DNA of 64,000 nucleotides from an uncultured Pseudomonadota bacterium (GTDB lineage: Bacteria > Pseudomonadota > Gammaproteobacteria > Steroidobacterales > Woeseiaceae): the NCBI GenBank assembly GCA_913055625.1, contig CAJXJW010000001.1, positions 186,001 to 250,000 of the forward strand, given 5' to 3'. A program made the position numbers and the translations under genes. Of the stretch, positions 11,950-34,372 are shown in pieces. The notes under the pieces are model-generated. The model had not been told where the DNA came from and did not search any database. It saw only the letters and a program-made list of their open reading frames with translations. How positions within the stretch are numbered: the first letter of the stretch is position 1; each line of letters starts with the position of its first letter.

Positions 11950-12900
11950 CTAGCTTGCAGGAAGGACGGGGGACGGCGTCCCTCGTTCGGCGCGCCTCGA
12001 GCAGGACTCCCGAACGTCTTCGCGGATGATCGCCGCGAGGCGGTCGAGGCCGGGGCCCGCGGAATCAGGATCCGCGTAGACAAGGTAGAGTTCCGTGGAG
12101 CGCTCGGCGCCGCCTTCCAACGGCAGTACCTTGAGGATACCGTTGGCCAGTTCGTCCACGATCTTGTCGGACGGAAACCACGCGAAGCCGTAGCCGCGGC
12201 ACACGGCGCCGATCGACGTCGCCATGTTCGTCACGGTCCAACGCTGCGACGCATTCATCGTTTCGGGGTGCGCATCGCGCCGCGATCCGGAGTCGCGGAC
12301 GAGGACATGCCGATGCTCGCGCAGGTCGCGCAAGGAGAGCTCGCGCCCGAGCCGGTGCAGGGGGTGGTCAGGGTGCGCGACCGGCAGGAAGCGCATCGGC
12401 ATCAGCAACTCGCCGTTCATGTTGGGCGGGATGCGCGGTGTGATGGCGAGATCGACGCGGCCCTCGCGCAGCGCCTCGGACGTACCGTCGAGCACGGTCT
12501 CGTAAAGCTCGATGCGCGTCTGCGGGCTTTCTGCGCCGAAGCGATCGAGGCTCTTCAGCATGAGCCAGGTCGGGAACAGCACCTCCACGGCAATCCGGAT
12601 CTCGGCTTCCCAGCCGGCCGACGAGCGCCGCGCGGCACGTTCCAGGCCGCCGGCCTCGTCGACCAGCAGGCGGGCGCGTTCGACCAGCATGCGGCCCGCC
12701 GGCGTCAGAGTGGCCTTGCGTCCCTCGGTCGTGAACACCGCCACGCCCAGTTGCGACTCGAGTTTCTGCACGGCATAGGTAACGGTCGACTGGCTCTTGC
12801 TGAGACGTTCGGCGGCGTGCGCGTAACCGCCGGCGTCCACCACGGCGATAAAGCTACGCCACTGCTCGAGCGAGACGCGGGGTGGGGGATTTCGGTCCAT
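11950..12900 (-). CDS. LysR-family transcriptional regulator
   Basis: A 316-residue regulator. Residues 8-66 form the winged helix-turn-helix (SLEQWRSFIAVVDAGGYAHAAERLSKSQSTVTYAVQKLESQLG), followed by the periplasmic-binding-protein-like effector domain. It is divergent from the azoreductase gene with 108 bases between the starts, the classic arrangement for a LysR regulator and its target. The intergenic region carries two T-N11-A palindromes. The ATG at 12900 has no clear ribosome-binding site. The effector is unknown; quinones or electrophiles would be plausible given the target. Confidence 0.95.
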   Translation of the reverse strand: MDRNPPPRVSLEQWRSFIAVVDAGGYAHAAERLSKSQSTVTYAVQKLESQLGVAVFTTEGRKATLTPAGRMLVERARLLVDEAGGLERAARRSSAGWEAEIRIAVEVLFPTWLMLKSLDRFGAESPQTRIELYETVLDGTSEALREGRVDLAITPRIPPNMNGELLMPMRFLPVAHPDHPLHRLGRELSLRDLREHRHVLVRDSGSRRDAHPETMNASQRWTVTNMATSIGAVCRGYGFAWFPSDKIVDELANGILKVLPLEGGAERSTELYLVYADPDSAGPGLDRLAAIIREDVRESCSRRAERGTPSPVLPAS

Positions 12901-18430: not shown

Positions 18431-19420
18431 ATGAGCGCACGGCTGATCCAGTGCCTGGACGACGACGGCGAGCGTTGCGTCGCGACGGTGGATACGGACG
18501 GCAACGCGCGCGTGCTCGACGAGGTCCGCTCAACCTATGCGCTCGCGTGCGCTGTGCTCGAGGCCGGTACCACGCTGGAGGCCGCGGTCGCGCAGCATGC
18601 GACAGGTGCCGCCATCGATCTCGACGCGGCTCTCAACGAAGGTCGTCTGCTGCCGGCGATCGACCATCCGGATCCCGCGCACCTGTTGCTGTCCGGCACC
18701 GGACTCACGCATCTCGGCTCGGCGGAAGGGCGTGACCGCATGCACCGTGCTGCGGCGGGCGAGAACGAGACGGATTCGATGCGCATGTTCCGGATGGGGC
18801 TCGACGGCGGCAAGCCGGCCGACGGCCGTCCCGGCGTGCAACCCGAGTGGTTCTACAAGGGCGATGGTGACGCGATCGTCGGCCCGGGCGCGCCGCTGAC
18901 GTCGCCGTCGTTTGCCGAAGACGGCAGCGAGGAACCGGAGATCGCGGGCATCTACGTCATCGCTCCGGACGGCCTGCCGCGCCGGCTCGGCTTCTGCCTT
19001 GCGAACGAGTTCTCCGATCACGTGACCGAGCGGGGCAACTACCTGTGGCTCGCGCACTCGAAATTGCGGCCGGCGGCGCTCGGTGCCGAACTCATCAGCG
19101 ACCTGCCGACCGACGTCCGCGGGACCAGCCGAATTCGACGAAATGGTGACATTGCCTGGGAGAAGCCGTTCCTGACGGGCGAGGCGAACATGTCGCACAC
19201 AATCGCGAACCTCGAACATCACCACTTCAAGTACGCGCTGTTTCGCCGGCCGGGCGACGTGCACGTGCACTTCTTCGGTACCGCAACGCTGTCGTTCGCT
19301 GACGGGTTTCGTGCGGAGGAGGGCGACGAGTTCGAGATTACCGCACCGCCATTCCGGCTGCCGTTGCGCAACCGGCTGACGACTGCCGTCGCGGCGGCGG
19401 TCGCCGCGCAGCCGCTCTGA
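18431..19420 (+). CDS. FAH-superfamily protein, AraD1/GguC-like
   Basis: A 329-residue protein of the fumarylacetoacetate-hydrolase superfamily. It resembles the AraD1/GguC group, found in sugar-oxidation operons and assigned to 2-keto-3-deoxy-sugar acid (for example 2-keto-3-deoxy-L-arabonate) dehydration. Characteristic blocks are LLLSGTGLTHLGSAEGRDRMH, QPEWFYKGDGDAIVGPG, ANEFSDHVTERGNYLWLAHSKLRPAALG and GDVHVHFFGTATLSFADG. It is followed after one base by the sugar dehydrogenase and shares substrate logic with the lactonase and dehydratase at 20696-23378. Confidence 0.85.
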   Translation: MSARLIQCLDDDGERCVATVDTDGNARVLDEVRSTYALACAVLEAGTTLEAAVAQHATGAAIDLDAALNEGRLLPAIDHPDPAHLLLSGTGLTHLGSAEGRDRMHRAAAGENETDSMRMFRMGLDGGKPADGRPGVQPEWFYKGDGDAIVGPGAPLTSPSFAEDGSEEPEIAGIYVIAPDGLPRRLGFCLANEFSDHVTERGNYLWLAHSKLRPAALGAELISDLPTDVRGTSRIRRNGDIAWEKPFLTGEANMSHTIANLEHHHFKYALFRRPGDVHVHFFGTATLSFADGFRAEEGDEFEITAPPFRLPLRNRLTTAVAAAVAAQPL

Positions 19421-19421
19421 G

Positions 19422-20354
19422 ATGGCAGACAAGCCCATACGGCTTGCGCTGGTCGGCGTCGGCAAGATCGCGCGGGACCAACACGTGCCGGCGCTGGAAG
19501 CCAACCCCGACTTCGAACTCGTTGGCTGCGCGAGCCGCCACCAGTCTCTCGACGGTGTGCCGCATGCCGTCTCGCTGGAGGAACTGCTGGACACGGGTAT
19601 CGGGATCGACGCAGTGTCGATCTGCACGCCGCCGCAGGCGCGCTACGAGATCGCGGCGGCGGCGTTGCGGCGCTGCCTCGATGTAATGCTCGAGAAGCCG
19701 CCCGGTGCGACGCTGAACGAAGTAGCGGCGCTCGAGGGTCTTGCGAACGCCCAGGGCTCGTCGCTGTTTGCCACGTGGCACTCGCGCGAAGCGGCCAGCG
19801 TGGCGCCGGCGCGTGACTGGCTGTCGGGCCGGCGGGTCGTTCGCGTGCACATCGACTGGCGCGAGGACGTGCGCGTGTGGCACCCGGGGCAAACCTGGAT
19901 CTGGCAGGCCGGCGGCCTGGGAGTGTTCGATCCCGGCATCAACGCGCTGTCGATAATCACGCAGATCCTGCCGCAAAGTGTGCGCGTGATCGACGCAGAG
20001 CTTGCCGTACCGGAGAACTGCGAGACACCGATCGCGGCGAGCATTCGCATGCTGGGTGATGCCGGTGCGGAAGTGCTGGCCGAGTTCGACTTCCTGCACC
20101 CCGGCCCGCCGCGCTGGCAGATCGACGTGGAATGCGAGGATGGGCACCTGCGACTCACGCGAGGTGGCGCAGTGCTGGAGATCGACGGCGACACGCCTGT
20201 AACGGCCGAGGACCGGGAGTACGCCAACCTCTACCGCCGGTTCGCGGATCTGGTTCGTGCGCGGGAGAGCGACGTGGATTGCGAACCGCTACGCCTGGTG
20301 GCGGACGCGTTCCTGTGCGGCCGCCGACGCACGGTCGATGCCTTCGTCGAGTGA
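19422..20354 (+). CDS. Gfo/Idh/MocA oxidoreductase, sugar 1-dehydrogenase (D-galactose/L-arabinose type)
   Basis: A 310-residue NAD(P)-dependent enzyme. The Rossmann motif GVGKIARDQHVPAL is at residues 12-25, the catalytic EKPPGATL block follows the dinucleotide domain, and WQAGGLGVFDPGINALSI is the substrate-binding helix seen in D-galactose 1-dehydrogenase and Azospirillum-type L-arabinose 1-dehydrogenase. These oxidise the anomeric carbon to a lactone, the first step of a non-phosphorylative pathway whose next enzymes (SMP-30 lactonase, IlvD/Edd dehydratase) lie immediately downstream on the other strand. Sequence alone does not settle galactose versus arabinose or fucose. Confidence 0.88.
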   Translation: MADKPIRLALVGVGKIARDQHVPALEANPDFELVGCASRHQSLDGVPHAVSLEELLDTGIGIDAVSICTPPQARYEIAAAALRRCLDVMLEKPPGATLNEVAALEGLANAQGSSLFATWHSREAASVAPARDWLSGRRVVRVHIDWREDVRVWHPGQTWIWQAGGLGVFDPGINALSIITQILPQSVRVIDAELAVPENCETPIAASIRMLGDAGAEVLAEFDFLHPGPPRWQIDVECEDGHLRLTRGGAVLEIDGDTPVTAEDREYANLYRRFADLVRARESDVDCEPLRLVADAFLCGRRRTVDAFVE

Positions 20355-20410
20355 GTTACGAGGCAGATGGCGTCCGGATGCAATTGGTCAGCGCAGTGCG
20401 TTTGGAAAAT

Positions 20411-20684
20411 AAAAAGGTGTCTAAAAAGGTGTCAGGTTTATTTTTTTAAAACGGTGTCTAAAACGGTGTCAGGTTTATTTTTTCCTCAAGAATAAAAAGG
20501 TGTCAGGTCTATTTTTTCCTCAAGAATAAAAAGGTGTCAGGTTTATTTTTTCCTCATCTAAAAAGGTGTCTGTCTAAAAAGGTGTCAGGTCTATTTTTTC
20601 GCCGGTCTCGACGACTCTCATAGCAAAAAAATAAACCTGACACCTTTTTGTTTTTGGACACCTTTTTGGACACCTTTTTGGACG
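20411..20684. repeat. AT-rich GGTGTC repeat array with inverted end
   Basis: This region fills most of the 341-base gap between two convergent genes. There are eight direct copies of GGTGTC (20416, 20429, 20453, 20465, 20499, 20533, 20565, 20581), five of them extended to GGTGTCAGGTYTATTTTTT (20429, 20465, 20499, 20533, 20581). Three inverted copies (GACACC at 20639, 20657, 20669) follow. The last full direct copy (20576-20599) and the first inverted copy (20626-20649) are complementary at 23 of 24 positions around a 26-base loop. The base composition is sharply unlike the rest of the window. It could be a REP/BIME-like element and a two-way terminator. Confidence 0.85.
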
Positions 20685-20695
20685 GTGAACCTGGC

Positions 20696-21556
20696 TTATC
20701 CCCTGAACGGAGCTTGCGGCAATCCGCGTACGCCCGGATCCACTTCGAAGAGCATTCCGGCGTCCTGTTCTTCGTCTCTTCCGTGGGCCGCCGACGTGAC
20801 GAACATGCGGTCGAGACCGGTGCCCGCGAAGACGCAGCTCGTGATCCGGGATGCCGGCAACTCGATCGATCGTTCCCGTTTGCCGTCAGGGCTGAAGCGG
20901 CTGACGCAGCCGCCGTCCCAGTGCGCGACCCAGAGATAACCTTCGCTGTCCACGGTCATGCCGTCGGGGTATCCCCACTCGTCGGGAAACCGGATGAACT
21001 CGCGTCGTTCGCCCGGGTTCCCGCTGCCATCCATCGGGTACTTGTAGATCGTGCGCCGGGCGGAATCCGTGTGGTACATCGCCGCGCCGTCCGGGCTGAA
21101 CGCGGGTCCGTTCGTCACGCGATACCCGGAGTCGAGGCGCGTGATGCTGAAGTCCGTGTCGAGGCAATACAGCGAGCCCGACTCGGTGGCTTCTTCCGCG
21201 TCCATCGTCCCGGCCCAGATCCGTCCGCGCGCATCAGTCTTGGCGTCGTTCATCCGGTTGCCGGGAAGCTGCGGTTCCGGGTCGACGATAGGTGTGATCG
21301 AGAACGGGTCCAGCTTCAGCTCGACAAAACCCGATTGCAGGCCAGCAATGAAGCCGGGCCGATCGGCGCGTTCGATGAGCCAGCCGATACGCTCCGGCAT
21401 GTCCCAGGAGCGCACCGACAGGTCGTTGAGCGCGAGGCGGTGTATCGCCGGCGCCAGGATATCGACCCAGTAGACCGCGTTCTCCGCGGCAACCCAGCGC
21501 GGGCCTTCGCCGAGCTGGCAGCGAATGTCGCAACGTACGCGGTATGCGGCGGCCAC
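20696..21556 (-). CDS. SMP-30/gluconolactonase family sugar lactonase
   Basis: A 286-residue six-bladed beta-propeller lactonase that opens aldonolactones to aldonic acids. Family blocks are LGEGPRWVAAENAVYWVDI (metal ligand Glu), NRMNDAKTDARGRIWAGTMD (Asn/Asp ligands), VTNGPAFSPDGAAMYHTDS and EWGYPDGMTVDSEGYLWVAHWDGGCVSRFSPDG. All expected metal ligands appear present. It is the last gene of an operon galM - dehydratase - lactonase; its stop lies next to the GGTGTC array. It should act on the product of the dehydrogenase at 19422. Confidence 0.95.
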   Translation of the reverse strand: MAAAYRVRCDIRCQLGEGPRWVAAENAVYWVDILAPAIHRLALNDLSVRSWDMPERIGWLIERADRPGFIAGLQSGFVELKLDPFSITPIVDPEPQLPGNRMNDAKTDARGRIWAGTMDAEEATESGSLYCLDTDFSITRLDSGYRVTNGPAFSPDGAAMYHTDSARRTIYKYPMDGSGNPGERREFIRFPDEWGYPDGMTVDSEGYLWVAHWDGGCVSRFSPDGKRERSIELPASRITSCVFAGTGLDRMFVTSAAHGRDEEQDAGMLFEVDPGVRGLPQAPFRG

Positions 21557-21569
21557 GGCGGTGGCGGCG

Positions 21570-23378
21570 TCAGTGACTGTGGCGTGGCGCGCGGTACTTC
21601 TGGGCGAGGCGCTGGTATTTCGTCGCGTCCTTCAGCACCGCGCCCGTGTCGAGCTGGCTGACGGTCATGCGCTGTATTTCCTGCCACGGGGACTGGCTCT
21701 CCGGGTAGGCGTAGCCGCCGGCGGCCTCCAGTGCCTGCCGGCGCCGCTCGAGTTCGGCGTCGTCCACGAGCATGTCGGCAGTGCCACGCCCGAGGTCGAT
21801 GCGCACGGCGTCGCCCGTCTCGAGCAGTGCGAGGCCGCCGCCCACGGCGGCTTCCGGCGCGGCGTTCAGGATCGACGGTGAACCCGACGTGCCCGACTGC
21901 CGGCCGTCGCCGACACAGGGCAGGGTGCCGACGCCGGCGCGGATCAGTGCAGCCGGCGCGCGCATGTTCACCACCTCGGCGGAACCCGGGTAGCCGACCG
22001 GGCCGGTGCCGCGGATGAACAGGATCGTATTCTCGTCGATGCCGGAGTCCGGATCGTCGATGCGCGCGTGGTAGTCCTCCGGCCCGTCGAACACGACGGC
22101 CTTGCCTTCGAACGCGTTCGGGTCGTCCGGGTTCGAGAGATACTTCTTGCGGAACGCATCCGAGATCACGCTCGTCTTCATGATCGCCGAGTCGAAGAGG
22201 TTGCCCTTGAGTACCGTGAAGCCGGCCTTCGTCATCAACGGCCGGTCGAACGGCCGGATGACGTCCTCGTCGCGGATACGCGCGTTCCGGCAGTTGTCGC
22301 CGATTGATTTGCCGTTGACCGTCAATGCGTCCTCGGCGACCAGGCCCTTTTTCATCAGTTCCGACACGACGGCCGGTACGCCGCCGGCACGGTAGTAGTC
22401 CTCACCCAGGTACTCGCCGGCGGGCTGCAGGTTCACGAGCAGCGGCACGTCGAGGCCATGCGCCTGCCAGTCGTCCACGGTCAGTTCGACGCCGATGTGC
22501 GCGGCGATGGCATTCAGGTGGATGGGTGCATTCGTCGATCCGCCAATGGCCGAGTTGACGCGGATCGCATTGACGAACGCCTCGCGCGTCAGCACGTCCG
22601 ACGGCTTGCGGTCGGCGTGCACCATCTCGACGATCTGCTGCCCAGTTCGGTACGCACATTCCTGGCGGTCGCGGTGCGGCGCGGGAATCGCGGCGGAACC
22701 GGGCAGCGACATGCCGAGTGCCTCCGTCAGGCTGTTCATCGTCGTCGCAGTGCCCATCGTATTGCAGTAGCCGGTCGACGGCGCGGACGAGGCGACGAGC
22801 TTGATGAAGCCTTCGTAGTCCACCTCGCCGGCCGCGAGCATCTCCCGTGCCTTCCAGACGATCGTGCCGGAGCCGGTGCGTTCGCCGTCGTGCCAGCCGT
22901 TCAGCATCGGGCCGACCGACAACGCGATCGCCGGGATGTTCACCGTGGCGGCCGCCATCAGGCAGGCCGGCGTCGTCTTGTCGCAGCCGATGGTCAGCAC
23001 GACGCCGTCGAGCGGGTAGCCGAACAGGACTTCGACGAGAGACAGGTAGGCGAGGTTCCGGTCGAGCCCCGCCGTCGGCCGCTTGCCGGTCTCCTGGATC
23101 GGGTGCACCGGGAACTCGAGCACGATACCGCCGGCCTCGCGCACGCCTTCGCGAACGCGCTCTGCGAGCACGATGTGGTGCCGATTGCACGGCGACAGGT
23201 CGCTGCCGGTCTGCGCGATGCCGATGATCGGCTTGCCGGACTGCAGCTCCTCGAGCGACAGCCCGAAGTTCATGTAGCGCTCGAGGTACAGCGCCGTCAT
23301 ATCCGGGTTCGACGGGTCGTCGAACCATTCGCGCGATCGCAGTCGCTGCGCCGCGTCCTTCTTGCCGGGTCCGGCCAT
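21570..23378 (-). CDS. IlvD/Edd family sugar-acid dehydratase (arabonate/galactonate type)
   Basis: A 602-residue Fe-S dehydratase that converts an aldonate to a 2-keto-3-deoxy acid. The start is set at ATG 23378 ([39 protein letters not shown]), the usual beginning of this subfamily; the 48 upstream in-frame residues overlap the galM gene. Cluster cysteines C64 ([10 protein letters not shown]), C132 ([10 protein letters not shown]) and C205 ([10 protein letters not shown]) are all present. The subfamily with RSREWFDDP is mostly L-arabonate/D-xylonate/D-galactonate dehydratase rather than IlvD proper. It lies 13 bases from the lactonase gene. Confidence 0.93.
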
Positions 23379-23395
23379 CGGTAGTCGCTCGCGTG

Positions 23396-24535
23396 TCAGT
23401 CGCTGCTGCCGGACGAAAAGCGCAGCAGCAGCGTGTTGGTGTAGGTATCGCCGGGGTTCAGCCGGGCTGACGGAAACGCCGGCTTGTTCGGCGAGTCCGG
23501 GTAGACCTGCGGCTCGAGGCACAGTGCATCGCCCTGGCGGTAGATCTGGTCGTGCTTGCCGATGTTCGTGCCGTCGAGGAAGTTGCCGGAGTAGAACTGC
23601 ACCGCGGGGGCGCTGGTCAGGAGTTCCAGCGTGCGCCCGCTGTGCGGGTCGTGCAGGCGGGCGGCGAGCTTCAGGCCCTCGCCGTCGAGCACGAAGTTGT
23701 GGTCGTAACCGCGGCCGAACACGATTTGCGGGTCGGTCGCGTCGCGCACGGCGTCGCCGATACGGCGCGGTTCGCGAAAGTCGAAGGCCGTGCCAGCGAC
23801 GTCGCGGAGTTCACCGGTCGGAATCAGTGTTTCGTCGACCGGCGTATAGCGGCGGGAGGGGATCTCCAGGACGTGGTCGAGGATGCCGTGGCCGCTGTCG
23901 GCGCCGGCGAGATTGAAGTACGCGTGGTTCGTGATATTGACGATCGTGGGCTTGTCGGTCGTCGCGGTGTAGTCGATGCGCAGGCTGTTGTCGTCTGACA
24001 GGGCATAGCGCGCGCGGACGGTGAGCTTGCCCGGGTAACCGCTGTCGCCGTCGGGACTCTCCAGCCGGAGCACGACGCTCGCGGGCGAGCCGCTTTCCAC
24101 GGACTCGATCGTCCAGTGCCGCTTGTCGAAGCCGACCACGCCGCCGTGCAGATGGTTCGGGCCGTTGTTCGCTTCGAGCGGGTAGCGCTTGCCATCGAGC
24201 GTGAACGCGGCCTTGCCGATACGGTTCGCGTAACGACCTACCGTGGCGCCGTGGTAGCCGCCCTTGTCGAGGTACTCCTGCGCGCTGTCGTAGCCGAGCA
24301 CGACGTCGGCAAGTTCGCCGTCAGCGTCCGGCACCGCGAGCGACTGGATCGTCGCGCCGAGCGACAGCAGGCGCACGTGCATGCCGTTGTCATTGGCGAG
24401 AACCACAGCCGTGACGGCGGTCCCATCCGACGTGGCACCGAACGGTTCACGCTCGGCCGTGGCGGCCCACGCACCGGCATTGACGGCAAACAGGAGACAG
24501 CCGGCCCAGCCGGCGCCGCGGACGGTTTTGCGCAT
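23396..24535 (-). CDS. galM: Aldose 1-epimerase with signal peptide
   Basis: A 379-residue mutarotase interconverting the alpha and beta anomers of aldoses. A signal peptide (about 1-25, ending AWA) places it in the periplasm. Core motifs are [47 protein letters not shown] and the late catalytic-glutamate block [15 protein letters not shown]. It heads the operon with the dehydratase (17 bases downstream) and lactonase, so it probably supplies the correct anomer for uptake and oxidation. GGGGG lies six bases before the ATG at 24535. Confidence 0.95.
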
Positions 24536-26669: not shown

Positions 26670-27686
26670 ATGCAGATCAACGACAAATCCGGGCTGCTGC
26701 CGTACACGGCCAGCAGCCAGCGTTACGACACGATGACCTACCGCCGCTGCGGCACGACCGGGCTCAAGCTGCCGGCCCTGTCGCTGGGCCTCTGGCACAA
26801 CTTCGGGTTCGTGGACCGGCTGTCGACCGGCCGCGAAGTCCTGCGGGCCGCGTTCGACCGCGGCGTCGTGCACTGGGATCTCGCCAACAACTACGGCCCG
26901 CCGTACGGTTCGGCCGAACAGAATTTCGGGCTGATGCTGAAAGCGGATTTCGCGGCACACCGCGACGAACTCGTGATTTCGACAAAAGCCGGCTTCGACA
27001 TGTGGCCCGGCCCCTACGGCGTTGGTGGATCGCGCAAGTACCTCGTCGCCAGCCTCGACCAGAGCCTCGCCCGCATGGGCGTCGACTACGTCGATATCTT
27101 TTATCACCACTGCCCGGACCCGGAGACACCGGTCGAGGAATCCCTCGGTGCCGTCCGCGACGTCGTCCGGCAGGGAAAGGCGCTGTATGCCGGCATCTCG
27201 AACTACGATCCGCAGCTCACAGCGCGGGCCATCGAATTCTTTGCCGAGGAGCGCGTACCGTTCGTGCTGCACCAGGCGCGCTTCTCGTTGCTGGAGCGCA
27301 CGCCGGAAGAAGGCCTGCTCGACGTGCTCGATGCAGGCGGCGTCGGCTGCATCGCGTACTCCCCGCTTGCCCAGGGCTTGCTGACCGACCGCTACCTCGA
27401 GGGCGTGCCGGACGATTCGCGGGCGGCGAAACCGTTCACTTACCTCGAAAAGGACGCGGTGAGCCGGCAGCAGAAGAAGCTCGTGGCGCTGAACCGAATT
27501 GCCGCGGCGCGCGGGCAGTCGCTGGCACAGATGTCGCTCGCATGGCTGCTGACGCGCAAGGCCGTGTGCTCGGTACTTATCGGCGCGAGCTCGCGCGAGC
27601 AGCTCGTCGACAACCTCGGCGCGCTCGACACGCCCGATTTCGACGCGGACACGCTTTCGGCCATCGACGATGTCCTGGCGGCGTAG
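26670..27686 (+). CDS. Aldo/keto reductase, YghZ/Gpr-like
   Basis: A 338-residue NADPH-dependent reductase of the AKR14-like group (L-glyceraldehyde 3-phosphate reductase). The tetrad is visible: D70 and Y75 in HWDLANNYGPPYGSAE, K106 in ISTKAGFD and His 146/147 in DIFYHHCPDPETP. The N-terminal YTASSQRYDTMTYRRCGTTGLKLPALSLGLWHNFG is diagnostic of the group. It overlaps the GH2 gene by 17 bases and is probably cotranscribed with it. It may reduce a sugar-derived aldehyde or methylglyoxal. Confidence 0.93.
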   Translation: MQINDKSGLLPYTASSQRYDTMTYRRCGTTGLKLPALSLGLWHNFGFVDRLSTGREVLRAAFDRGVVHWDLANNYGPPYGSAEQNFGLMLKADFAAHRDELVISTKAGFDMWPGPYGVGGSRKYLVASLDQSLARMGVDYVDIFYHHCPDPETPVEESLGAVRDVVRQGKALYAGISNYDPQLTARAIEFFAEERVPFVLHQARFSLLERTPEEGLLDVLDAGGVGCIAYSPLAQGLLTDRYLEGVPDDSRAAKPFTYLEKDAVSRQQKKLVALNRIAAARGQSLAQMSLAWLLTRKAVCSVLIGASSREQLVDNLGALDTPDFDADTLSAIDDVLAA

Positions 27687-29481
27687 CTTCGCACTGCTGC
27701 TGTTCGCGCCCGTCGCGGCGTGCGCGCAGGGTGTCGCGCTGCCCGATGCGCAGCTCCTGCAGAACCCGCTGGCGCGGGACGGGATTTCGCTGAACGGCGA
27801 CTGGCGCGTAATCGTGGACCCGTACGAGAACGGGTACTACAACCACCGCTATGAACCGAAGGGTGACGGCTACTTCGTCGCACGCCGTCCCGCCAGCCCC
27901 GCCGATCTCGTGGAATACGACTTCCGGACGTCGCCCGTCGTCCCGGTACCGGGTGACTGGAACTCCCAGGACGAGCGGTACTTCTTCTACGAGGGCACGG
28001 TGTGGTACTACCGGGCGTTCGAGGCCGCAGCGCGCGACGGCCGGCACTACGTGCTGCACTTCGGCGCCGCGAACTACGCGGCTCAGGTCTGGTTGAATGG
28101 CCGGTACCTCGGTGCTCACGAGGGCGGGTTCACGCCGTTCGAGTTCGCGGCCGGTGACGCGCTCGTCGACGGCGAGAACTTCGTCGTCGTGAAAGTCGAC
28201 AACCGCCGCGAGCGCGACCAGGTGCCGACGGTCAACACGGACTGGTGGAACTACGGCGGGCTCACGCGCGACGTGCGCCTGATCGACGTGCCGGCCGCCC
28301 ACGTCGCGGACTACCGGTTCGTGCTCGCCGACGACGGCTCCGTCGCCGGTTGGGTGCGCGTCGGCGGCGTCGCGGGCGCACAAGCGGTATCGATATCGAT
28401 TCCCGACCTTGGTGCGCGGACCACGGTGCGCCCGGGCGCCGACGGCGTTGCGACATTCCGGCTCGATGCACGGCCGGAGCGCTGGTCGCCCGCGTCGCCG
28501 GTGCTGTACGACGTCATCGTCGGGTACGGCGACGAGCAGGTGACGGACCGGATCGGCTTCCGGACGATCGAGACGCGCGGCGAGGACATCCTGCTGAACG
28601 GCCGGCCGATCTTTCTTCGCGGAATCAGCATTCACGAGGAAGCACTCGGCCGCGAGGGTAGGGCCTGGAGCGAAGCCGATGCCCGCGCGCTGCTCGAAGC
28701 GGCGATCGAGCTCGGCTGCAACTTCGTGCGACTCGCGCACTATCCGCACAACGAGCACATGCTGCGAATGGCCGACGAACTCGGGCTCCTCGTCTGGGCC
28801 GAGATCCCGGTGTACTGGACGATCGACTTCAACTCGGACGCGGTGTACCGGAAGGCCGAACGGCAACTTGACGAGATGATTGCCCGCGACGCGAACCGGG
28901 CGTCGATCGTGCTGTGGTCGATGGCGAACGAGACGCCGATCAGCGACGCGAGGTTCGATTTCATCGGCAGGCTCGCCGCGCACGCGCGCGAACTGGACGG
29001 TACGCGCCTCGTTACGGCCGCGCTGGACACCCAGACCGCCGACCGGTTCCAGCGCATCATCGACGATCCGCTGTCGGCGGTGATCGACGTGATCGGCATC
29101 AACAGCTACTGCGGCTGGTACGGTGACTTGCCGGCCGACTGCGCCGCGCTGCGCTGGCACTCGGACTACGGGAAGCCCGTGATCCTGAGCGAAATGGGGG
29201 CCGGCGCCCTGGCGGGCCGCCACGGCGACGCCGCGGCGCGCTGGACCGAGGAGTACCAGGCGGACGTCTATCGCCACAACCTGGCGATGGTCGATCACAT
29301 GACGGCGCTGCGCGGGCTGTCGCCGTGGATACTGAAAGACTTTCGGTCGCCGCGCCGGCCGCTTCCGGGCATCCAGGACTACTGGAACCGCAAGGGGCTC
29401 GTCGACGAGTCCGGCACGCGCAAAGCCGCGTGGTTCGTGCTGCGTGACTACTACCGCGCGCGGGCCGGCGACGGGTCCTGA
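27670..29481 (+). CDS. Glycoside hydrolase family 2 (beta-glucuronidase/beta-galactosidase type), exported
   Basis: A 603-residue glycosidase with a signal peptide and possible lipobox-like VAAC near residue 18. The sugar-binding jelly roll comes first (LNGDWRVIVDPYENGYYNHR, VWLNGRYLGAHEGGFTPFEF), then the immunoglobulin-like domain and the TIM barrel (RGISIHEEALGREGRAW). The acid/base E421 lies in WSMANETP and the nucleophile E508 in LSEMGAGA. The domain layout and size match beta-glucuronidase-like GH2 enzymes rather than LacZ. The ATG at 27670 overlaps the reductase gene, and the shared context suggests oligosaccharide breakdown. Confidence 0.93.
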   Translation: MSWRRSFALLLFAPVAACAQGVALPDAQLLQNPLARDGISLNGDWRVIVDPYENGYYNHRYEPKGDGYFVARRPASPADLVEYDFRTSPVVPVPGDWNSQDERYFFYEGTVWYYRAFEAAARDGRHYVLHFGAANYAAQVWLNGRYLGAHEGGFTPFEFAAGDALVDGENFVVVKVDNRRERDQVPTVNTDWWNYGGLTRDVRLIDVPAAHVADYRFVLADDGSVAGWVRVGGVAGAQAVSISIPDLGARTTVRPGADGVATFRLDARPERWSPASPVLYDVIVGYGDEQVTDRIGFRTIETRGEDILLNGRPIFLRGISIHEEALGREGRAWSEADARALLEAAIELGCNFVRLAHYPHNEHMLRMADELGLLVWAEIPVYWTIDFNSDAVYRKAERQLDEMIARDANRASIVLWSMANETPISDARFDFIGRLAAHARELDGTRLVTAALDTQTADRFQRIIDDPLSAVIDVIGINSYCGWYGDLPADCAALRWHSDYGKPVILSEMGAGALAGRHGDAAARWTEEYQADVYRHNLAMVDHMTALRGLSPWILKDFRSPRRPLPGIQDYWNRKGLVDESGTRKAAWFVLRDYYRARAGDGS

Positions 29482-29519: not shown

Positions 29520-29525
29520 TTGACA
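29520..29525 (+). promoter_or_regulatory. Consensus -35 hexamer before the GH3 gene
   Basis: TTGACA matches the sigma-70 -35 consensus. The -10 region would fall at about 29543-29548, inside the LacI-type palindrome, and its sequence is poor, which suits a repressor-controlled promoter. Confidence 0.45.
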
Positions 29526-29544
29526 AGCGGGCCGGCCGTCAAGC

Positions 29545-29560
29545 ATGGTAGCGCTACCAT
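29545..29560. promoter_or_regulatory. LacI-family operator palindrome
   Basis: ATGGTAGC-GCTACCAT is a perfect 16-bp palindrome with the central CG step typical of LacI/GalR operators. Very similar motifs control sugar genes in Caulobacter and Xanthomonas. It overlaps the expected -10 region 69 bases before the GH3 start. No LacI regulator gene lies in the window. Confidence 0.75.
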
Positions 29561-29628: not shown

Positions 29629-32028
29629 ATGAAGAAGAACACGTTACGTGTCGCGCGGCTGGCTGCCGCATCACTGACCTTGTTCGGCATCGCGGCTTCG
29701 GCCCAGTCGCCGGGCGCGGATCCCGTCGGGCCGGACGCGCTCTACAAGAATCCCGACGCGCCGATCGATGCGCGCGTGGACGATCTGCTCAGCCGCATGA
29801 GCGTGGCGGAGAAGGTGGCCCAGGTCGTCACGATCTGGAACGACAAGCCGGCCCTGTTCGACAACGACATGAACTTCGACGCGGACAAGGCGCGGCTGCG
29901 GATTCCTCACGGCCTTGGCCAGTTCGCGCGGCCGATGGACATCAACGGGCCGTCGTCGCCGCGCGTCGTGCCGTGGCGTGATGCGCGCGGCACGGTAGAA
30001 CTCGTCAATGCGCTGCAGAAGTATGCCGTCGAGGAAACGCGCCTCGGGATCCCGATCCTGTTCCACGAAGAGGGGCTGCACGGCTACGCGGCCGTCGGCG
30101 CGACGAGTTTCCCGCAGGCGATCGCGATGGCGTCGTCGTGGGACCCGCTGCTGATTCGTGACGTCAACGCGGTCACGGCGCGCGAGATCCGGGTTCGCGG
30201 CGTGCACTTCGTGTTATCGCCGGTCGTCGACGTTGCGCGCGACCCGCGCTGGGGCCGCATCGAGGAAACCTTCGGCGAGGACCCGTACCTCGTCGGCGAG
30301 ATGGGCGTCGCCGCGGTGCTGGGTTTGCAGGGCGACAGCGTCGACGGGCGGCTCGCGGACGGCAAGGTGTTTGCGACGCTGAAACACATGACAGGCCACG
30401 GGCAGCCGGAAAGCGGCACGAACGTCGGGCCTGCGCAGATCTCGGAACGTGAGCTGCGCGAGAACTTCTTCCCGCCGTTCGAACAGGTCGTGCGGCGCAC
30501 CGGTATTCGGGCGGTGATGGCGTCATACAACGAGATCGACGGCGTGCCGAGCCATGCCAACGGCTGGCTCCTGAACGACGTGCTGCGGGGCGAATGGGGC
30601 TTCGACGGCGCCGTTGTCAGCGACTACTACGCTATCGAGCAGATGGCGGAGATTCATCGCATCGCCGAGACGGTCGCCGATGCGGCCGTCATTGCGCTGA
30701 ACGCCGGCGTGGACGTCGACCTGCCGAGCGGTGCCGGCTTCTCGACGCTGCCGCAGGCGCTTGCCGACGGCCGCATTAGCGAGGCGCGGCTCGACGAGGC
30801 GGTACGGCGGCATCTCGAGATCAAGTTCCGCGCGGGTCTGTTCGAGAATCCCTACGCGTCCGCGGACGCGGCGGAGCGGCTGACGAACAATGACGAAGCA
30901 CGGGCTCTGGCGCGGAAAGCGGCAGAGCGATCGATCGTGCTGCTCACGAACGACGGGACCCTGCCGTTGTCCGTGCCGGAGCGCGGGGAGAAGCCCGTGA
31001 TTGCGGTGATCGGGCCGAATGCGGCTGTCGCGCGGCTCGGCGGCTACTACGGCATACCGCCGCACACGGTGTCGCCGCTCGACGGCATCCGGACGAAGGT
31101 CGGCGACCGTGCCGAGATCCTGCACGCGCAAGGCGTCGTCATCACCGAGAACGACGACTGGTGGGCGGACGAGGTCGTCCTCGGCGATCCGGCCGAGAAC
31201 CGCCGCCGTATCGAGGAGGCCGTCGAGGTCGCGCGCCGCGCCGACACGATCATCCTCGCCATCGGCGATACGGAACAGACGAGTCGCGAAGGCTGGGCCG
31301 ATTCGCACCTGGGCGACCGATCGAGCCTCGACCTCGTCGGCGACCAGCAGGCGCTGTTCGATGCGCTGGAGACACTCGGCAAGCCGATCGTGGTCGTGCT
31401 GATCAACGGGCGCCCGCTGTCGACCGTGGCCATCGCCGGGAAGGCGAACGCGCTGGTCGAGGCCTGGTATCTCGGCGAGCAAGGCGGCACCGCGCTCGCG
31501 AACGTCCTGTTCGGCGACGTCAGTCCCGGCGGCAAGCTGCCCGTGACGATACCCCGCCACGTGGGCCAGCTGCCGCTCGTCTACAACCACAAGCCGTCGG
31601 CGCGGCGCGGTTACCTGTTCGACACGACCGAGCCACTGTTTCCGTTTGGCTGGGGCCTGAGCTACACGACGTTCGAACTGGGGCCGCCGCGCCTGTCGGC
31701 ATCGTCGATTGCGCCGGGCGGGGCCGTCGATGTCACGGTGAGGGTCAGCAATACCGGTGACGTGACCGGCGACGAGACCGTGCAGCTCTACGTGCGAGAC
31801 CGGATCAGCTCCGTCACGCGCCCGGTCAAGGCGCTGCAGGGCTTCCAGCGCGTCACGCTGGCGCCCGGCGAGAGCCGCGATGTCCGGTTGACGATCAGCC
31901 CGGTGTCGTTGCAGATGTGGAACGACCGCATGCAGCGTGTCGTGGAACCGGGCGAGTTCGAGATCATGACCGGGCCGAATTCGGTCGACCTTCAGTCGGT
32001 GACGCTCACGGTAACCGACGCCTCGTGA
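29629..32028 (+). CDS. Glycoside hydrolase family 3 (beta-glucosidase/beta-xylosidase), exported
   Basis: A 799-residue enzyme starting at ATG 29629 with a signal peptide (KKNTLRVARLAAASLTLFGIAASA). The GH3 barrel spans about 45-385, with substrate motifs HEEGLHGYA, SPVVDVARDPRWGRIEETFGEDPYL and KHMTGHGQPESGTN and the nucleophile D332 in VVSDYYAI. The alpha/beta sandwich follows, then a C-terminal fibronectin-III-like domain (about 690-790). Such enzymes release glucose or xylose from oligosaccharides in the periplasm. Control by a LacI-family repressor is suggested by the operator at 29545. An upstream in-frame ATG lies inside that operator and is unlikely to be used. Confidence 0.95.
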   Translation: MKKNTLRVARLAAASLTLFGIAASAQSPGADPVGPDALYKNPDAPIDARVDDLLSRMSVAEKVAQVVTIWNDKPALFDNDMNFDADKARLRIPHGLGQFARPMDINGPSSPRVVPWRDARGTVELVNALQKYAVEETRLGIPILFHEEGLHGYAAVGATSFPQAIAMASSWDPLLIRDVNAVTAREIRVRGVHFVLSPVVDVARDPRWGRIEETFGEDPYLVGEMGVAAVLGLQGDSVDGRLADGKVFATLKHMTGHGQPESGTNVGPAQISERELRENFFPPFEQVVRRTGIRAVMASYNEIDGVPSHANGWLLNDVLRGEWGFDGAVVSDYYAIEQMAEIHRIAETVADAAVIALNAGVDVDLPSGAGFSTLPQALADGRISEARLDEAVRRHLEIKFRAGLFENPYASADAAERLTNNDEARALARKAAERSIVLLTNDGTLPLSVPERGEKPVIAVIGPNAAVARLGGYYGIPPHTVSPLDGIRTKVGDRAEILHAQGVVITENDDWWADEVVLGDPAENRRRIEEAVEVARRADTIILAIGDTEQTSREGWADSHLGDRSSLDLVGDQQALFDALETLGKPIVVVLINGRPLSTVAIAGKANALVEAWYLGEQGGTALANVLFGDVSPGGKLPVTIPRHVGQLPLVYNHKPSARRGYLFDTTEPLFPFGWGLSYTTFELGPPRLSASSIAPGGAVDVTVRVSNTGDVTGDETVQLYVRDRISSVTRPVKALQGFQRVTLAPGESRDVRLTISPVSLQMWNDRMQRVVEPGEFEIMTGPNSVDLQSVTLTVTDAS

Positions 32029-32057: not shown

Positions 32058-32906
32058 TCAATCCATCGGGTTCGAGAGTTTGCCGATGCCGTCGATCTCG
32101 ATGTCGACGACGTCGCCGGGTTCGAGGCAGAGTTCGTCGGACGGCACGATGCCGGTGCCGGTCATCAACAGGCAGCCTGCCGGGTGTGCGTTGTCGCGGA
32201 ACAGCCACTCGACGAGTTCGTCGGGGCGCCGCTTCATCTGCGCGAGCGTCGTCGTCTCGTCGGCGATGACCGCGTCGGCGCGGCGGATCACGAGATGGAT
32301 CACAGTCGCGGGCGGCAGTGGCTCGGGCGTCACGAGCAGGCACGGGCCAAGCGCGGCGCAGCGGTCGAAGGTCTTGGCCTGCGGCAGGTACAACGGGTTC
32401 TCGCCTTCGATGTCGCGGCAACTCAGGTCGTTCCCGACGGTGTAGCCTACGATGCGCGCGTTGCGCGTGACGGCCAGCGTCAATTCGGGTTCCGGCACGA
32501 TCCAGCGCGAGTCCCGGCGCAGGTGCATCGCTGCCCCGTGACCGACGACACGCTGCGCGGTCGCCTTGAAGAAAAGCTCCGGGCGGTCGGCGTCGTAGAC
32601 ACGTTCGTAGAAATCGCCGCCGCCGGCGTCGCGGGATTCGGCGACGCGGGCTTCGCGGCTGCGGAAATACGTGACGCCGCACGCCCAGACTTCCTGTCGG
32701 CCGATCGGTGCCAGCGCGGTTCCCAACGCGCGGCCCGCCTCCGGCAGCGGTGTCGACGACGCGCAGTGACTGCGCAGCGCGTCGAACAACGCGTCGTCGT
32801 TGACGAGGTCGTCCCAGTCCTGCTCGACGGCATGGAACGCCGAATCACATTCGGCGACGGCGCCGTTCGCGGTGCGATACAGTCGAATGGCGGATGTCGT
32901 CGTCAT
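32058..32906 (-). CDS. Fumarylacetoacetate hydrolase family protein
   Basis: A 282-residue FAH-superfamily enzyme, convergent with the GH3 gene. The start is ATG 32906 ([11 protein letters not shown]); a further 22 in-frame residues upstream look non-homologous. The FAH core is present: [66 protein letters not shown] and the closing [17 protein letters not shown]. It probably acts on an acylpyruvate or 2,4-diketo sugar acid (as in the L-rhamnose or L-fucose oxidation routes). It is divergent from the GntP permease, which may import its pathway substrate. Confidence 0.9.
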
Positions 32907-33004
32907 CGTCGGGGCCGGGTCCTGGTGGCGAATGGGCGGCAAACAGTGCGGGACGAACGCGGGCGGCGTCAAGTGCGACGCGACGGTCGGGCGGTGAAGG
33001 CGGC

Positions 33005-34372
33005 GTGACGTCGGCGTACCCGCTACTGATACTCTGCGTCGGGCTCGTCGTGGTCGTCGGCGGTATCGTCGTGCTCAGGCTGCACGCGTTCATCGCGCTG
33101 ATCGCGGCGGCGATGATCGTCAGCCTGATGGCGCCGGGCGACTGGGGCGACAAGATTCCGCGCGTCGCGGAGGCGTTCGGCTCCACGGCCGCCGGCGTGG
33201 GTATCGTCATCGCCCTGGCGGCGATCATCGGCATGGCGATGACCGCGAGTGGCGCGGCTGATCGCGTGGTCAGGATGTTTCTCGGCCTGTTTGGCGAACG
33301 GCGTGGCGGCACCGCGCTGATGGCGAGCGGGTTTACGTTGGCGATCCCGGTGTTCTTCGACACGGTGTTCTTCCTGCTCGTGCCGCTCGTTCGGTCGATG
33401 TACCGCCGCACCGGCCGGCACTATCTCAAGTACCTGGTTGCGGCCGCGTCGTGCGCGGTCGCGCATGCGCTGATTCCGCCGACGCCAGGCCCGCTCATCA
33501 TCGCGGATACGCTGGCGATCGATCTCGGTGTGATGATGCTGGTCGGCTGCGCCGTGGGGCTGCCCGCGGCGGCTGCCGGCCTTGTCTTTGGCGCCTGGGT
33601 GGATCGCACGGTACCGGTGACGCCGCCGCGTGCCGAGGCCGCGACGGACGTGCCGACGGGCGTCGACGACGCGAACCTGCCCGGGCTCGGCTGGTCCATC
33701 GCGCCGATCGTCGTCCCGGTGGCGCTCATCACGGCGAACACCGTCGCGCGGGCGATGAGCCCGGATGGCGCGGCTTCGCCGCTCATGCATGCGCTCGCCG
33801 TGCTCGGCAATCCGCAGACGGCGCTGCTCGTCGCCGCGGCGATCGCCCTGTGGACCTACCGGCGCCAGTGCCGGCCGTCGTCGCAGCAGGTGGCGGACGC
33901 GGTCGGCGAGGCGCTGATGGCGGCGGGCGTCATCGTGCTCATCACCTGCGCGGGCGGCGCCTTCGGCGGCGCGCTGCGTGCGGCGGAACTCGCGCCGGCG
34001 ATCCAGGCACTGGCCGGCGATTCGGCGAGCAGCGGCTTCGGCCTGCTGTTCATGGCCTTCGGCGTCGCGGCGCTGATTAAGTTCGCCCAGGGATCGAGCA
34101 CTGCGGCGATGATCGTGACCTCCGCGATGATCGTCGCGATGATCGACACGGCGTCACTCGGGTTTCACCCGGTGTACGTCGGCACCGCGATCGGCGCCGG
34201 GTCGCTCGTGGGTTCGTGGATGAACGACAGCGGTTTCTGGATCTTCGCGAGGATGGGCGGATTGACGGAACTGCAGACGCTGCGTACCTGGACACCGCTG
34301 CTTGCACTCCTGGGTGCGGTCAGTATGGTGATGACACTCATTCTGGCGGCCGTCCTGCCGATGGCGCCATAG
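33005..34372 (+). CDS. GntP-family gluconate/sugar-acid:H+ symporter
   Basis: A 455-residue inner-membrane permease. The start is taken as GTG 33005, with AAGG four bases upstream and the first hydrophobic segment ([20 protein letters not shown]) directly after; the in-frame ATG at 32894 would add a low-complexity tail overlapping the divergent gene. Family blocks are [67 protein letters not shown], and near the C-terminus [12 protein letters not shown] and [16 protein letters not shown]. Family members carry gluconate, idonate or fructuronate. The gene is followed by an esterase on the same strand. Confidence 0.92.

Follow-up and report, generated by a model that had tools for sequence, protein, structure and literature searches.

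A predicted XylR-type operator over the promoter of a GH3 glycosidase gene and its wider xylan/xylose regulon in a Woeseiaceae bacterium

The closest described counterparts of the element considered here are the operators of LacI-family XylR regulators in Xanthomonas and Caulobacter. The Xanthomonas XylR box, or xyl-box, is given as TGGTAGCGCTAACA in two reports (PMC7748154; PMC10380989). According to an earlier study (PMC1790865), the xylose regulon of Caulobacter crescentus has a 20-bp palindromic motif that is likewise found before xylose genes and two TonB receptor genes of Xanthomonas. The LacI-type XylR of C. crescentus is described as dissociating from the operator in the presence of xylose (PMC10380989), and LacI-family operators at large are characterized as even palindromes of 16–22 nt with a central CG, located mostly 30–140 bp before the start codon (PMC4052901). 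We analyzed a 64-kb stretch of contig CAJXJW010000001.1 from an uncultured Woeseiaceae bacterium (the window, meaning the whole stretch), in which a perfect 16-bp palindrome, ATGGTAGCGCTACCAT (29545–29560, without strand), precedes a gene for a glycoside hydrolase of family 3 (GH3). Very probably, a LacI-family repressor of the XylR type uses this palindrome as its operator and would keep GH3 silent as long as it has not bound xylose or a xylo-oligosaccharide.

A likeness to LacI-family motifs of Caulobacter and Xanthomonas had been noticed in an original prediction made from the letters of the window, and it is close: the core of the palindrome, TGGTAGCGCTACCA, equals the Xanthomonas xyl-box at 13 of 14 bases, differing at a single one. 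In Xanthomonas, too, a box stands before a xylose isomerase gene (PMC7748154; PMC10380989), while the site here differs from those of X. campestris pv. campestris and X. citri in being perfectly symmetric, and we do not suggest that it is tied to virulence regulation. At the level of the general LacI-family rules we see no difference, the palindrome being even, 16 bp long and CG-centered, and lying in a non-coding promoter region 68 bp before the likely start codon (a distance that rests on the inferred ATG at 29629). A full-text literature search with 14-base variants including this core returned only Xanthomonas, with TGGTAGCGCTAACA, most subscription papers lying outside its scope. The XylR type is assigned by operator match and gene context, and the result extends a known regulon type to another genome rather than opening a new question.

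The proposed regulated gene (29629–32028, forward strand; C1:215629–218025 in coordinates of the bacterium's own genome, G000) encodes a 799-aa exo-glycosidase of the beta-xylosidase/beta-glucosidase type with Pfam GH3 N, GH3 C and Fn3-like domains. Its best matches among sequences of the Protein Data Bank (PDB) are 7zb3, named a beta-xylosidase, and 8c7f, named a xylosidase. The longest GH3 open reading frame (ORF) opens at an ATG within the palindrome itself (29545); the true start is most likely 29629, which is preceded by a purine-rich stretch and followed by an N-terminus, MKKNTLRVARLAAASLTLFGIAASAQS, that we judge to be signal-peptide-like, and with this start the palindrome is non-coding. 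Upstream lies a −35-like hexamer, TTGACA (29520–29525, forward strand), which is the exact consensus that had been predicted; it begins at offset −25 from the start of the palindrome, leaving a gap of 19 bp. After an 18-bp spacer a weak −10-like hexamer, CATGGT (29544–29549, forward strand), overlaps the left half-site. The palindrome, confirmed as perfect over its 16 bp, is the sole match in the window at three or fewer mismatches, a threshold at which dinucleotide shuffles of the window gave a mean of 0.12 matches and at least one match in 12 of 100 shuffles.

The site and its layout are conserved upstream of related GH3 genes. We searched up to 500 bp upstream of the match in the best 80 of 449 loci, which carry GH3 relatives of 61–70% identity from many sphingomonads, some other Alphaproteobacteria, Microbulbifer and Steroidobacter-like genomes, and the site was found at three or fewer mismatches in 76 of the 80 (best-site mismatches of 0, 1, 2, 3, 4 and 6 in 4, 29, 18, 25, 2 and 2 loci, respectively). 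A few of the 76 sites are remote or doubtful in form (for example, those of L079 and L106, which lie 472 and 345 bp upstream of the match, respectively) and were counted as found, and the counts are not independent, since the 80 loci are mutually related. At the same threshold a site turned up in 3 of 1600 shuffled control regions and in 0 of 80 stretches taken from within the gene, and the reversed pattern matched in 1 of 80. In 65 of the 76 relatives an exact TTGACA precedes the palindrome start, at offset −24 (47 loci), −25 (16) or −26 (2), whereas the same test placed 30 bp further upstream gave 0 of 76; CATGGT occupies the −10 place in 43 of 76. The matching spacing in 65 of 76 relatives indicates that the operator-over-promoter layout is conserved despite the weak −10, in a large number of sphingomonads as well as in certain other Alpha- and Gammaproteobacteria. 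Across 37 GH3-bearing genomes the pattern was found at two or fewer mismatches in 131 places compared with 31 for the control, exceeding its own control in 31 genomes and falling below it in three.

An AGTCAAG-like element, approximately +27 to +34 from the palindrome start, is kept in many sphingomonads (L053, L061, L073 and other GH3 relatives) and is absent from the GH3 promoter region of the window. A leftward promoter formed from this downstream AGTCAAG was considered and set aside, its spacing to the palindrome being, by inspection, not the mirror of that of the forward promoter.

Copies of the palindrome also occur at other xylan and xylose genes of the same genome (3.63 Mb in 20 contigs; control, the reversed pattern). 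The exact sequence occurs twice, in the window and at C6:154520, with a single one-mismatch copy at C13:15401, while the control had no place at one or fewer mismatches; a degenerate form, ATGKTANCGNTAMCAT, was found at one or fewer mismatches in nine places compared with one for the control. The second exact site (C6:154520) lies between GH67, sugar porter and GH10 genes on one side and ManD, xylulokinase (xylB), xylose isomerase (xylA) and transaldolase genes on the other; xylA (TIGR02630), xylB, ManD and transaldolase all score above their NCBIfam equivalog cut-offs, and the porter, of the MFS type, is XylE-like but under the XylE cut-off. On the ManD side of this site TTGACA is again present, 17 bp before TATGGT. 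The remaining sites precede a second GH3 gene (C13:15401), a TonB receptor gene (a tandem pair 22 bp apart, C2:265901 and C2:265923, spanning 265901–265938) and a LacI-family gene, R3 (a pair 53 bp apart, C3:148463 and C3:148516, spanning 148463–148531), or are flanked by a GH31 gene and a pyrophosphatase gene in divergent orientation (C7:99485) or by genes for a TonB receptor and a cupin (C7:59729). Judging by their arrangement, the paired sites on C2 and C3 could permit cooperative binding or looping. Four sites (window, C6:154520, C13:15401 and C7:59729) overlap the 5′ ends of longest-ORF calls; of these we regard the first three as non-coding, since each is followed, further in, by a start resembling that of a signal peptide or a lipoprotein. 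Two of three three-mismatch places, C1:415709 and C2:453327, were rejected as regulon members because they fall inside called genes.

The expectation that the site marks a wider sugar regulon therefore held in the genome search, which placed exact or near copies at the GH67-MFS-GH10/manD-xylB-xylA cluster, the second GH3, GH31, TonB receptors and a LacI-family gene; absence from other glycan promoters, which would have counted against that expectation, was not what we found. As to the inducer, xylose or cello-oligosaccharides had been suggested, and of these the gene set points to xylan and xylose, nothing specific for cello-oligosaccharides having been seen in it. GH3, the GH67/GH10/xylA-xylB cluster, the second GH3, GH31 and the TonB receptors can accordingly be viewed as one predicted xylose-responsive regulon with a likely repressor named, which may be of use in annotation and in the choice of an inducible promoter.

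No LacI-family gene was found in the window, where a LysR-type gene at 11950–12900 lies 16.6 kb from the palindrome, and all five members of the family that were found in the genome (R1–R5) lie outside it, in agreement with the proposal that the regulator is encoded elsewhere. The best candidate is R4 (C6:144449–145558), which is located in the C6 xylan region approximately 9 kb from the exact site at C6:154520, with xylA and xylB in between. Its paralogue R3 (C3:147278–148333), with two sites upstream, is 66% identical to it, compared with 27–39% for the other pairs among the five, and R3 and R4 are the only ones of the five with the recognition helix S-P-M-T-V-S-R. R1, R2 and R5 were rejected as binders, since they carry KK, IK and QA instead of PM in the helix and no strong site occurs in the surrounding 19.5-kb stretches. 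Among 30 relatives of R4 that were read (L117–L146; 29 from GH3-bearing genomes and one from the congener G015), the helix has SPMT in 27 and SAMT in three, and in a tree of 34 rows R3, R4, these relatives and two further congener proteins unite with a support of 100/99, with R1, R2 and R5 apart and several long branches elsewhere. The NCBIfam matches of R4 include none that reaches its cut-off and none to a XylR model.

Genes of the R4 type are linked to GH3 in other genomes. In a sample of 37 of the 80 GH3 genomes, picked for variety, a relative of R4 (E ≤0.001) was present in 36, the genome without a match being G076; of the 30 in which it could be placed relative to GH3, it is upstream and divergent in 27, at distances of 0.2–11.4 kb. 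The lack of a local regulator, noted from the window, thus stands for the window itself and is peculiar to this genome, given that in most placed relatives the regulator gene lies near GH3. A site scoring >20 occurs within approximately 1.5 kb on either side of 13 of the 30 R4-relative loci, some of these being the GH3 site itself, and at none of eight more distant congener homologues (L150–L157; the flank is shorter in L156); of two further congener R4-type loci, L149 has such a site and L148 has none.

The site, the promoter layout, the spread over xylan and xylose genes and the linkage to R4-type genes can be read from the genomes themselves, while repressor binding, the sign of regulation and the inducer are drawn from the known XylR systems. 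By that analogy, a dimer, most likely of R4 or of its paralogue R3, would hold the palindrome and block RNA polymerase at the −10 position, and xylose or a xylo-oligosaccharide would free the repressor, inducing GH3 together with the GH67/GH10/xylA-xylB cluster, the second GH3, GH31 and the TonB receptors. The targets are spread over several contigs of this genome, on which the regulator would act in trans, while in most placed relatives its gene is situated upstream of GH3 in divergent orientation.

Several observations, at the level of the site and then of the regulator, weigh against an operator of this kind. The palindrome had been placed at the −10 position, which is correct by spacing, but the hexamer there is poor, CATGGT having three of six consensus bases, and a generic consensus promoter scan found no sigma-70 promoter at the GH3 site. 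In this genome the pattern shows no excess at three or fewer mismatches (nine places compared with 16 for the control), for which reason only near-perfect sites were counted, and a looser form, TGNTANCGNTANCA, matched exactly in six places compared with five for the control. The scan and the count at three mismatches would suit a palindrome that arose by chance in GC-rich intergenic DNA, or a 5′ untranslated RNA hairpin; such an origin is nevertheless very improbable, in light of a site in 76 of 80 relatives compared with 3 of 1600 shuffles and the conserved TTGACA spacing, and the asymmetric versions of the site in several relatives (e.g., ATGGTAACGCTATCAG) would speak for protein binding rather than for a hairpin in RNA. 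The target at C7:99485 is uncertain because the divergent pyrophosphatase gene shares the site. Every NCBIfam match of the window GH3 is below its cut-off (the best, beta-xylosidase/alpha-L-arabinosidase, at 597.8 bits against a cut-off of 1050 bits), which makes any assignment of its substrate tentative. The pair of GH3 and the GH2 gene that precedes it is flanked by oxidative-type sugar-acid genes (window 18431–23522 and 32058–34372), namely GguC/AraD1-like, Gfo/Idh, SMP-30 lactonase, IlvD/Edd dehydratase, FAA hydrolase and GntP permease, and no good xyl-type site was found at them. C. crescentus degrades xylose oxidatively; in this genome, in contrast, a site lies at an isomerase-type xylB-xylA set.

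For the regulator, the recognition helix shared by R3 and R4 means that either of them may be the binder. The operator may be real and yet be bound at GH3 mainly by R3, or be shared by R3 and R4 in competition, which is possible but less probable than a leading role of R4: the identical helix would permit it and R3 has two upstream sites, a common sign of autoregulation, whereas none was found in R4's own upstream region. It is R4 and not R3, however, that sits in the C6 xylan cluster approximately 9 kb from the second exact site, the scanned neighbours of R3 include a general MFS protein but otherwise no glycan gene, and for 28 of the 30 relatives read, R3 is no closer than R4. We therefore prefer R4 over R3 as the binder, by our estimate as about twice as probable. 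The linkage of R4 relatives to GH3 also has exceptions, with the relative 29.6 kb from GH3 in G074, downstream of it in G075 (contig identity assumed) and on another contig in G073, and with G048, G062, G063, G064, G066 and G070, for which there was no locus, unplaced in the count.

R4 itself directly follows zwf, a 235-aa ORF and edd, a placement resembling that of the Caulobacter GluR gene, which follows zwf-pgl-edd-glk (PMC4052901). An R4-type regulator of the GluR or BglR kind, with a site answering to glucose or cello-oligosaccharides rather than xylose, would fit this placement as well as the presence of beta-glucosidases among the solved-structure GH3 enzymes related to that of the window. 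We consider this unlikely, since the sites lie at GH67, GH10, xylA and xylB, zwf and R4 have no site in front, and R4 relatives have a xylose isomerase gene nearby in two congeners, and GH67, GH3 and ManD genes in Sphingomonas cavernae (L163). Two palindrome-like stretches stand just before zwf, TGTAGGAAAATTACA (C6:140304–140318; L110:3305–3319) and TGTAGTAAACTTACA (C6:140367–140381; L110:3368–3382). Both resemble HexR boxes, and their position suggests that zwf-edd may be under HexR rather than R4.

The distribution among congeners bears on the origin of the XylR-type regulon. From a larger group we compared 61 genomes of the genus, counting the one studied here; many are incomplete, with 25 at ≥90% completeness and ≤5% contamination. 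At E ≤1e-150, GH3 was found in our genome and in none of the 60 congeners, while Sphingomonas and Sphingobium commonly have GH3 relatives of approximately 70% identity. An R4-type gene of at least 60% identity is present in four of the 61 (our genome, G015, G092 and G007), and in each of the latter three a site lies within 3 kb of it; xylose isomerase is approximately 1.2 kb from the R4-type gene in G015 and 6.6 kb in G092, the neighbours in G007 having been scanned in part. The palindrome occurs at one or fewer mismatches in two of 40 genomes (our own and 39 relatives), namely our own and G015, which indicates that the regulon is not genus-wide, and the degenerate pattern is at background in the other 60 congeners, which include G015, G092 and G007 (65 places in sum compared with 53 for the control; at most four per genome, compared with nine in our own). 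From this distribution, GH3 may possibly have been acquired horizontally together with its operator, with loss elsewhere as an alternative. More tentatively, a xyl-box code shared across Alpha- and Gammaproteobacteria might let xylan genes move pre-wired, such that GH3 arrived with its operator and came at once under the trans control of a XylR-type repressor already present, the outcome being a dispersed regulon, built from such pre-wired parts, with two paralogous repressors on one operator code.

Among the remaining features, the GH2 gene at the upstream edge of the promoter region (27670–29481, forward strand) ends 63 bp before the palindrome, and its best NCBIfam match is a beta-glucuronidase, below cut-off. 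Elsewhere in the genome, C11:19203–19216 holds a near-palindrome, TGATATCGGTATCA, which is CG-centered with one unpaired position and belongs to a different class with TGATA half-sites.
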